DNA from: Thiomicrorhabdus indica
Lineage (GTDB): Bacteria; Pseudomonadota; Gammaproteobacteria; Thiomicrospirales; Thiomicrospiraceae
Length of the DNA stretch: 64,000 nucleotides
Direction: 5' to 3'
Assembly (NCBI RefSeq): GCF_004293625.1
Contig: NZ_CP033040.1
Span: forward strand, 2,743,001 to 2,807,000
Part shown: positions 36,718 through 38,797 of the stretch, piece by piece
Layout: every line of letters starts with the position of its first letter
Numbering within the stretch: the first letter of the stretch is position 1
Made by a program: the position numbers and the translations under genes
The notes under the pieces: generated by a model
What the model saw: only the letters and a program-made list of their open reading frames with translations
What the model was told of the DNA's origin: nothing
Databases searched by the model: none

Positions 36718-37431
36718 CTAAAACTTTTTGTAACCCCAGCCTTGCTGCATTTTTTCCACGATAATATCCAAAGCCAGTCGGTCAGACGCGACAGCTGGAA
36801 TTAATTTTACGGCTTTGCCCTGTTCCTGCTTTCTTTCAATTGCTCGACTACAGGCAATCAATTTGACATTATCGTAGCGTGAAAGTAGCGCAAGAATTTC
36901 TTCTTTATGAGGATTATTTTCAGCAAAAAATTCAATACCTAGGTCATTGGTAATAATTTCAAGCGTCTTAGGTCCAAGCTCGGGAGAAAGGGAGCTTTGC
37001 TCTAAAAGCAAACGTGCTTCTTGCAATAATCTCTCGCCTCGCTCTTCCTGATTAGTATCCAGATGCAGTACAACATTCTTTCCAGATTTTGTCTGCTGAG
37101 AAGCGGCGGCTGTCTGTTGCTGAGAGGTGTATGCAGAGGAATCAGTCATAGAGTGCCCGCCCCAAAAGCCTACAATGACTGCCAAAAATAAACTGGCGGC
37201 ATAAACCGTTGATTTAAAACTCCCTGTACGGCTGACAGAAACAGACGACTTAGGAGGTGCAGGAATCGACTTGTAATAGCGCTGTATATCCTGTTTAACT
37301 CGAGCCATTGCATTAAGTTCTTCGGCTAATTCCTTATCCTGTTTTAAGGCCGCTTCAAACGTACGCTGATCAGATTTGGATAATTCTCCGTCAAGATACA
37401 AATGTAGATACTGTTTAGGATCAAATACCAT
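36718..37431 (-). CDS. Anti-sigma factor-like membrane protein with periplasmic DsrE-like domain
   Basis: From the ATG at 37431 the protein has 237 residues. The N-terminal part (MVFDPKQYLHLYLDGELSKSDQRTFEAAL) resembles cytoplasmic anti-sigma domains but lacks the zinc-binding His and Cys residues. One membrane segment (AASLFLAVIVGFWGG) follows near residue 85, then a Thr/Ser/Gln-rich linker. The remaining 115 or so residues (VVLHLDTNQEERGERLLQEARLLLEQ, DNVKLIACSRAIERK, DRLALDIIVEKMQQGW) have the alternating pattern and Cys position of DsrE-like sulfur-relay domains. Its start overlaps the sigma gene stop by 11 bp, so the two are coupled. The DsrE reading is an inference from pattern. Confidence 0.7.
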   Translation of the reverse strand: MVFDPKQYLHLYLDGELSKSDQRTFEAALKQDKELAEELNAMARVKQDIQRYYKSIPAPPKSSVSVSRTGSFKSTVYAASLFLAVIVGFWGGHSMTDSSAYTSQQQTAAASQQTKSGKNVVLHLDTNQEERGERLLQEARLLLEQSSLSPELGPKTLEIITNDLGIEFFAENNPHKEEILALLSRYDNVKLIACSRAIERKQEQGKAVKLIPAVASDRLALDIIVEKMQQGWGYKKF

Positions 37432-37990
37432 GAGCTTTAAACTCCACCACTTTGGAAGTACCGAGATTGGCTTCACTTCTTTCTATTAATTGACGAATAT
37501 GTTTCCGTGCCCGAGACAAACGACTCATAACAGTTCCAATCGGAACCTGCAAAATATCGGAAACTTCTTGGTAACTATAACCTTCCAAGTCAACCAATAG
37601 GATGACTTGCCGATATTCGACCGATAAACGGCCAATCGCCTGATGAACATTCTCGCAAGTTTGATGAAGAATATAAACCTGTTCGACACAGGTAGAACAC
37701 AGATCAACTTCCTGGTCGAGCACGTCCATTTCTACCCACTTTTTATTTTGACGAAGATAGTCAAGAAACTGATTATGCATGATCTTAAACAACCAACGAT
37801 CTGCCCCTTCAAAGTTGTGAAGTTGATGGCTTTTTTCTAGTGCCTTCACCACTGTATCTTGCACTAAATCTAGCGCCACATGTCGACTTTGAGACCAACC
37901 ATAAGCAACACGATAAAGAGTGTCGTACTGAGTTTCCAAAACCGCCTTCACTTTTTTCTGCTGGCATAAGCCAGACCATTTTTTAAACAT
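37421..37990 (-). CDS. ECF-type RNA polymerase sigma factor
   Basis: The 189-residue protein has sigma region 2 (TLYRVAYGWSQSRHVALDLVQDTVVKAL, then RWLFKIMHNQFLDYLRQ) and region 4 (LSVEYRQVILLVDLEGYSYQEVSDILQVPIGTVMSRLSRARKHI), the ECF pattern. The linker between them carries a CSTC pair and another Cys (HQTC), which could sense redox state or bind metal. The ATG at 37990 has AAGGAG upstream. It forms an operon with the anti-sigma gene and is divergent from a secreted DsrE-family gene, a likely target. Confidence 0.9.
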   Translation of the reverse strand: MFKKWSGLCQQKKVKAVLETQYDTLYRVAYGWSQSRHVALDLVQDTVVKALEKSHQLHNFEGADRWLFKIMHNQFLDYLRQNKKWVEMDVLDQEVDLCSTCVEQVYILHQTCENVHQAIGRLSVEYRQVILLVDLEGYSYQEVSDILQVPIGTVMSRLSRARKHIRQLIERSEANLGTSKVVEFKAHGI

Positions 37991-38153
37991 AAAAAACTCC
38001 TTTTTTCCATAATAAAGGTATTTTTCAAATCTTTGCAAGTGATTGTTGTATAAGGATTTTCTTAAATAAACACAGCCTATAAAGAGATAAAAACTTTATC
38101 CAAAGAAAATGGGAATAAAACCGGAGGCTATTTCGTTTAAAGATTAAGTAAGC

Positions 38154-38189
38154 GATTACGACATAGACATATTAAATGTCGCGGTAATC
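38154..38189. promoter_or_regulatory. Inverted repeat between the sigma gene and the DsrE-family gene
   Basis: GATTAC at 38154-38159 pairs with GTAATC at 38184-38189, and an inner GACAT pairs with ATGTC at 38176-38180. It lies in the 312-bp divergent gap and could be an operator or an RNA hairpin. Confidence 0.4.
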
Positions 38190-38302
38190 TAAATTTTAAA
38201 AATGCAAAACAGGAATATAAACCTAAAACAATTCCCACTAGAACAATTCTGCTCACAAGAAAAATAAGCTACAAAGCCTTAATCACAATTGGAGAAAGTA
38301 CA

Positions 38303-38797
38303 ATGAAACATTTCGCTCATACAATAACTTTACTAACAACCGCTTGCTTACTGATGGCAAGTGCTTTTCAAACGGTACAGGCCAAAAGCGAACGCTACGC
38401 CGAACAAAAAGTGGTTTATCACATTAACTACGACGACCCTAGCAAACAATCTAGCACGCTTAGAAACATCCAAAACCATGTTAACGCTCTGGGTGCCGAT
38501 CACGTTAACATTAAAGTCATTCTTCACGGAAACGGTCTTTCTTTATTGCTAAAACCCGAAGCCCTCGCTAATGTTCCAAAATTCAAAACTGGAAATGCCG
38601 ACACCTCTCTTCAACAAAAAATAGACAGCTTGAGAATGCAGGGAGTACAGTTCAATGTTTGCTCCAATACCGTTAAAGGACGAAACGTAAACATTGACAG
38701 AGATTTATATGAAGTGGAAAAAAACGACGTTGTGCCAAGCGGTGTTGCAGAGCTCACTTACCTTCAACAAAAAGGTTACCTATATTTGAGACCTTAA
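38303..38797 (+). CDS. Periplasmic DsrE-family protein
   Basis: The 164-residue protein starts with a signal peptide (MKHFAHTITLLTTACLLMAS, then VQA before the mature part). The mature domain has the DsrE pattern: KVVYHINYDDPSKQSSTLRNIQNHV, HVNIKVILHGNGLSLLL, SLRMQGVQFNVCSNTVKGR with the single conserved Cys, and VPSGVAELTYLQQKGYLYLRP. DsrE-family proteins take part in sulfur transfer or bind thiols or metals. It faces the sigma/anti-sigma pair, whose anti-sigma factor may carry a similar domain. A folded intergenic region follows. Confidence 0.83.
   Translation: MKHFAHTITLLTTACLLMASAFQTVQAKSERYAEQKVVYHINYDDPSKQSSTLRNIQNHVNALGADHVNIKVILHGNGLSLLLKPEALANVPKFKTGNADTSLQQKIDSLRMQGVQFNVCSNTVKGRNVNIDRDLYEVEKNDVVPSGVAELTYLQQKGYLYLRP

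Follow-up and report, generated by a model that had tools for sequence, protein, structure and literature searches.

The window, i.e. the whole 64,000-nt stretch of DNA that was analysed, contains a three-gene locus encoding an ECF sigma factor, a membrane anti-sigma with a predicted periplasmic DsrE-fold domain, and a secreted DsrE-family protein (Table 1). We consider it reasonably probable that these three proteins form a sulfur-responsive periplasmic switch acting on the ECF sigma factor, for which we infer the ligand, the direction of the response and the mode of release. A broader claim, to which we give an even chance, is that the locus belongs to a widespread and so far undescribed class of sigma/anti-sigma pairs. 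Such pairs would read periplasmic sulfane sulfur via a tethered DsrE domain and would be the switch through which Sox thiosulfate oxidation is controlled at the level of transcription in much of the sulfur-oxidising Gammaproteobacteria; a secreted copy of the sensor domain would serve both as target and as feedback partner.

Table 1. Features of the three-gene locus, in window positions
Feature	Position	Strand	Basis
ECF sigma factor, 189 aa from ATG, regions 2 and 4 only	37421..37990	-	Pfam, neighbour counts
Membrane anti-sigma with C-terminal DsrE domain, 237 aa from ATG	36718..37431	-	
Putative N-terminal anti-sigma domain, residues 1-58, without HxxxCxxC	37258..37431	-	Sub-threshold zf-HC2, predicted helices
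Predicted single transmembrane segment, ~residues 73-93	37153..37215	-	Hydropathy
Predicted periplasmic DsrE-fold domain, residues 117-237	36721..37083	-	hhalign, PDB profile search, AlphaFold, Foldseek
Codon of invariant Cys194 (anti-sigma)	36850..36852	-	102/102 relatives; aligns with secreted Cys120
Secreted DsrE-family protein, 164 aa, N-terminal signal sequence	38303..38797	+	Pfam DsrE, model, Foldseek
Codon of invariant Cys120, C-x-x-T (secreted DsrE)	38660..38662	+	45 aligned members
Predicted ECF promoter GGAATAAA-N14-CGTTTA, driving the secreted DsrE gene	38112..38139	+	Motif common to divergent intergenic regions

The sigma/anti-sigma pair and the two DsrE domains

The locus is flanked by recG on one side and by a chorismate lyase gene on the other. 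Its sigma factor matches Pfam Sigma70_r4_2 (E 5.4e-18) and Sigma70_r2 (E 1e-10), scores 77.5 bits against TIGR02937 (cut-off 42.9), and with 189 aa and regions 2 and 4 only it falls into the ECF group (group 4); no NCBIfam equivalog was matched at or above its cut-off. The sigma stop and the anti-sigma start overlap by 11 nt, and this overlap, together with an adjacent sigma gene in 94 of 102 relatives, fits the anti-sigma of an ECF sigma factor, whose gene is expected beside the sigma gene and co-transcribed with it. The preliminary description had also given a role to the CSTC motif in the sigma linker, which did not hold up. This motif is private to the window sequence: among 28 aligned sigma factors, C98 is Cys in 3, whereas C101 is Cys in 11 and Ser in 12. 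The linker cysteines were rejected as a sensor because of this poor conservation.

The N-terminal part of the anti-sigma has no zinc motif, as had been proposed from the window protein: HxxxCxxC occurs in none of 102 full-length anti-sigmas, and a zinc-binding anti-sigma (ZAS) was rejected for this reason. Against Pfam, the sole match of the window protein is a sub-threshold zf-HC2, a model that matches 33 of 41 family members (E up to 0.1), and the NCBIfam antisigma model reaches E 1.3e-6, which is under its cut-off. The AlphaFold model has three helices at the N terminus, with a weak Foldseek match to RslA (3hug; E 0.44, prob 0.99). RseA_N is not matched by the window protein and is matched weakly by 5 of the 41 relatives, at E 7.5e-4 in the best case. 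Hydropathy peaks at 1.58 in the window protein and at 1.6 or more in 87 of the 102 relatives; the hydrophobic segment sits in the link between the N- and C-terminal domains, which is modelled by AlphaFold without confidence.

The C-terminal part of the window anti-sigma has no match to Pfam DsrE, which 6 of the 41 relatives match at E up to 0.1. When the 41 relatives were aligned and their profile compared with the PDB, MTH1491 was found at E 4.4e-17. hhalign comparison of the C terminus with 45 secreted DsrE proteins, partly gathered by iterated profiles, gave Prob 99.2, E 2e-19 and a score of 113. The highest score among 50 column shuffles was 25, and the N-terminal part scored 15.5; the window's own secreted protein passes Pfam alone. 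As assessed by AlphaFold, the C terminus has a pLDDT of ~92-98 (the N-terminal helices are also of high confidence), and Foldseek aligns it to 1l1s with a TM(target) of 0.89, to DsrEFH chain C with 0.65, and also to 2pd2. Structure prediction, which might have returned an unrelated fold, thus returned a DsrE fold. As judged from profiles and models, the extracytoplasmic part of the anti-sigma is a true DsrE-fold domain. The divergently encoded neighbour matches Pfam DsrE (PF02635; E 2.7e-11, 44.1 bits vs a cut-off of 22.7), and its model (pLDDT 93) is matched by Foldseek to 2pd2, 3pnx and DsrEFH. The preliminary reading of these two proteins, i.e. a DsrE-like extracytoplasmic domain with one Cys next to a secreted DsrE protein with a conserved Cys, is therefore upheld.

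Cys194 and Trp232 are the two residues invariant in all 102 full-length anti-sigmas. In the profile alignment, Cys194 is in register with Cys120 of the secreted protein, itself invariant in 45 aligned members, and it is also in register with a Cys of MTH1491 and ST0148. These are the closest solved structures, and their PDB entries say no more than hypothetical protein or unknown function. Relative to the catalytic Cys of true DsrE/TusD, Cys194 is in register locally, in a non-significant alignment (hhalign Prob 1, E 0.05). A tree of DsrE domains has a single split (support 0.957) with every anti-sigma domain (90) on one side and every secreted domain (106) on the other, and because of this split the fusion of DsrE and anti-sigma looks like a single old lineage.

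Distribution and gene neighbourhoods

Nearly full-length matches to the anti-sigma were found in 12 of 24 loci, with Thiomicrospira, Thiomicrorhabdus, Thiogranum, Thiohalobacter and a Thiotrichales MAG among them; the other loci match mainly the N-terminal part. Of 369 genomes sampled evenly across the class Gammaproteobacteria, at least 66 encode the full-length protein. SoxY or DsrA is present in 64 of these 66 carriers (among the matches listed) vs 137 of the 303 other genomes (Fisher p 6e-17, which ignores phylogeny), i.e. almost every carrier is a sulfur oxidiser as judged by marker genes. In a sample of the phylum (249 genomes), the full-length protein was found in two genomes, both Gammaproteobacteria, and matches in the other classes cover the DsrE part only.

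Gene neighbourhoods were tallied in 40 stretches from 41 matching genomes out of 95 (one stretch each, two for some genomes, and with a few weak matches omitted) and in 60 stretches from the 66 full-length genomes. These 100 stretches yielded 102 full-length anti-sigmas, after exclusion of L071 with its split anti-sigma. The survey of three-gene co-occurrence suggested in the preliminary description came out in its favour. A sigma gene adjoins the anti-sigma in 94 of the 102 relatives, and 78 of them have a gene for a secreted DsrE protein no more than 3.5 kb away; among the 24 anti-sigmas that miss a DsrE neighbour, five are less than 1.5 kb from the end of the fetched stretch. The genes travel together, and since the loci were chosen by their anti-sigma match, these counts speak of neighbours only. 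In a tally of 106 DsrE neighbours, in which genes beside two tandem anti-sigmas enter twice, 83 are divergent, i.e. upstream and on the opposite strand. The remaining neighbours are downstream, 19 of them on the same strand and 4 on the opposite one. A porin-like gene, identified as Porin_O_P (PF07396) in the one representative checked, occupies the opposite (divergent) strand in 62 of the 100 loci; there is no porin gene in the window locus.

The 2.83-Mb genome, which is a single contig, contains five DsrE-like frames, two of which adjoin its two anti-sigma loci. The second locus (~154.8 kb; G000:C1:154811-155533, L004/L070) comprises sigma, anti-sigma, DsrE and porin genes. Its anti-sigma is 29% identical to that of the window, and the whole system is a diverged copy, in which the porin gene lies behind the DsrE gene and the secreted DsrE protein is of another type than in the window.

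Several loci depart from this arrangement. Full-length anti-sigma genes occur in tandem pairs in L150 and L170, each with its own sigma gene, and a third secreted DsrE gene is found on the far side of the anti-sigma in two loci (L066:7723-8253 and L068:6821-7324). A rhodanese-domain protein (PF00581) is encoded downstream of one anti-sigma, on the opposite strand (L145:2361-2783). A SoxB-like metallophosphoesterase gene is divergent to sigma in three loci where no DsrE gene was found (L155:4494-6626, L151:4286-6460 and L135:1-1362). The L155 protein scores 180 bits against TIGR04486, which is below the cut-off of 550, and two further relatives were seen in L163 and L187.

A common promoter element and the sox genes

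Intergenic regions between the sigma gene and the divergent gene share an ECF-type promoter, GGAATAAA-N-CGT(C/T)T, which was found in 60 of 92 regions. Most families have CGTC(T) as its -10 part; in the window's family this part reads CGTTTA or CGTTAT. Sites point toward the divergent DsrE/porin side in 49 regions and, in many families, also toward sigma (29 regions); for the former direction, 200 mononucleotide shuffles averaged 1.6 and never exceeded 5. The predicted promoter of the window locus lies 164 nt before the DsrE start and is the sole match to GGAATA-N(14-17)-CGTT(T/A) in the 64 kb. Across the genome, GGAATA-N(14-16)-CGTYTA has five matches, the dsrE promoter included, and one match in the reversed control, so that the four others may be due to chance. 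The element is assigned to this sigma factor, putatively, by position only.

Eight carrier genomes were scanned with the promoter pattern and served as a discovery set. Two of these genomes have a site before soxB, and sites were also seen upstream of a SoxX-like gene and of a gene for a sulfur transporter. The element lies 301 nt before the last of these (L202:1802-3028; Sulf_transp PF04143, with weak TsuA matches). It also precedes a gene for a small secreted protein (L218:1576-2055), which is DsrE-like by eye and has no Pfam/NCBIfam match.

For scoring, we used a matrix derived from sigma-DsrE regions only (47 sites from 32 loci). Sites of at least 15 bits precede soxX in 11 of 40 carrier loci vs 1 of 40 non-carrier loci (p 0.003, phylogeny unmatched), and at 18 bits the counts are 9 of 40 and 0 of 40. 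Ten of the soxX sites are 590-893 bp upstream of the SoxY domain and one is at 1174 bp. Behind them lie soxX, soxY, soxZ and soxA-like frames, in that order; NCBIfam confirmed SoxX in three loci and SoxA in one, the rest being identified by eye and by the SoxY match. Two carrier soxX loci with ~150 bp upstream each (L228 and L242) were counted as misses. For soxB, sites were found in 11 of 28 carriers and in 0 of 27 non-carriers (p 3e-4, phylogeny unmatched), all of them 84-199 bp upstream of the profile match. Loci with profile starts above 5 were dropped from this test (A+, L369 and L370; A-, L395, L399 and L401); the second G212 and second G102 places and further G074/G230 places were unusable, and G113, G194 and G373 had no match. 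When the eight discovery genomes were left out, the counts were 10 of 31 vs 1 of 40 for soxX (p 7e-4) and 8 of 20 vs 0 of 27 for soxB (p 4e-4). The reversed-sequence and opposite-strand controls for sox sites gave no site.

In total, sites before soxX and/or soxB occur in at least 16 anti-sigma-carrying genomes, from 11 families by the labels of the search tool. A strong site is absent from 29 of the 40 soxX and 17 of the 28 soxB carrier loci, and the link to sox therefore holds for part of the lineage only. For the family to which the window belongs, sox control was sought in 16 SoxY loci of 13 genomes and no credible site was found, so that the visible target there is the DsrE gene; weak regex matches in two loci (L272 and L274), with poor -35 or spacing context, were not counted. 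The preliminary description had named sulfur species, thiols or metals as possible signals, and of these it is the sulfur branch that gains from the element before soxX/soxB in other lineages and from carriers that are nearly all sulfur oxidisers. The porin partner, the common promoter, the second copy in the genome and the link to sox go beyond that description.

The predicted switch, its relatives and the alternatives

In the switch that we propose, the DsrE domain of the anti-sigma would face the periplasm, where Cys194 would take up sulfane sulfur, with thiosulfate, polysulfide or sulfide as source, in the form of a persulfide, like Cys78 of DsrE. Once Cys194 is loaded, the cytoplasmic domain would loosen its hold on sigma. 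The freed sigma factor, which would recognise the GGAATAAA-CGTC/TT element, would then fire GGAATAAA promoters, i.e. those of DsrE genes, often of a porin gene and, in several lineages, of Sox genes. The secreted DsrE protein, which would be made by the switch itself and resembles the sensor in fold and Cys, probably deals with the same kinds of sulfur and would thereby either feed or quench the sensor; the preliminary description had suggested that it may signal to the anti-sigma domain or compete with it. As far as the available text of PMC3397948 goes, DsrE-Cys78 carries a persulfide in A. vinosum and DsrEFH is unable to take sulfur from thiosulfate, from which it follows that the sensor may need a donor.

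An ECF sigma factor with a membrane anti-sigma is a known chassis; what is new, as far as we searched, is the domain that serves as sensor and the set of targets. Literature searches, with most subscription papers outside their coverage, turned up neither a DsrE-domain anti-sigma nor an ECF sigma factor for sox. RseA and the RslA/RskA-type anti-sigmas have the layout predicted for this anti-sigma, with a cytoplasmic anti-sigma domain, one membrane span, an extracytoplasmic sensor and an operon shared with sigma, whereas here the sensor has a predicted DsrE fold, the zinc motif is missing and RseA_N is matched by few members (5/41). The sulfurtransferases DsrE/DsrF and TusD (PF02635) share the fold and have one conserved Cys that may be placed alike, but they are subunits of cytoplasmic heterohexamers, whereas the present locus has a secreted domain and another that an anti-sigma tethers. 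Among ECF sigma factors tied to sulfur metabolism, RpoE1/RpoE4 (ECF26) of Sinorhizobium meliloti, with their anti-sigma partners, are switched on by thiosulfate and taurine, with sulfite as the probable mediator, and control the sulfite dehydrogenase sorT (PMC3511301). By that description they differ from the present pair, being alphaproteobacterial with a sulfite signal, and the available text of PMC3511301 mentions neither a DsrE domain nor sox targets. Sulfane-sulfur control of sox by cysteine modification is described for SoxR/sHdrR of Hyphomicrobium denitrificans (PMC10451225). In that account, these are ArsR-type repressors that bind DNA in the cytoplasm and use two cysteines, with no sigma/anti-sigma pair and no periplasmic sensor. 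The same source, in its available text, describes the sensing of thiosulfate and related compounds by sulfur oxidisers as little known (PMC10451225). With a sulfur-carrier fold on the outer side of the membrane, a cell could read sulfur at the site of the Sox enzymes, before it reaches the cytoplasm. Such a switch would also offer a role for a family of secreted DsrE proteins, among whose closest solved relatives no function is known. Because it names a Cys, a promoter element and target genes, the idea is directly testable.

It is unlikely that the pair is an envelope-stress switch, in which the DsrE domain would be a protein-binding module that senses porin (misfolded or free) or else the secreted DsrE protein itself, with a ligand other than sulfur. 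The frequent porin-like divergent gene (62/100 loci), a target that suits general envelope stress, would fit such a switch, as would the secreted DsrE gene nearby (78/102) and the weak RseA_N matches. Against it are the invariance of Cys194 (102/102) and its presence in the secreted protein as well, the promoter element before sox genes, and the predominance of sulfur oxidisers by marker genes among carriers (64/66, among the matches listed).

Quite unlikely, too, is a thiol/redox or metal sensor, whose single Cys would react with oxidants, thiols or soft metals while the secreted DsrE protein acts as scavenger. A reactive Cys is general among DsrE-fold proteins. The one conserved Cys of the predicted periplasmic domain would suit such a sensor, and so would the reactivity of Cys residues in this fold, exemplified by the persulfide on DsrE described in the available text of PMC3397948. 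On the other hand, there is no second conserved Cys or His cluster in the anti-sigmas, CxxC occurs in 1 of 102, and the targets found are sulfur-oxidation genes, not genes of metal or peroxide defence.

In the sulfur-responsive switch, the element would belong to this sigma factor, and we regard it as very unlikely that the GGAATAAA-CGTC element is owned by another sigma factor common to sulfur oxidisers, with this pair merely under its control: such a reading could draw on the positional assignment and on a genome without the anti-sigma that has a site before soxX, but the element is commonest in this pair's own intergenic regions, often in both directions, and is almost absent before the sox genes of non-carriers. 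The genome in question (G122, locus L310), in which no full-length anti-sigma was detected, has a 17-bit site before soxX; it is a draft of ~220 contigs, and the anti-sigma gene may therefore be missing from the assembly or have been lost.
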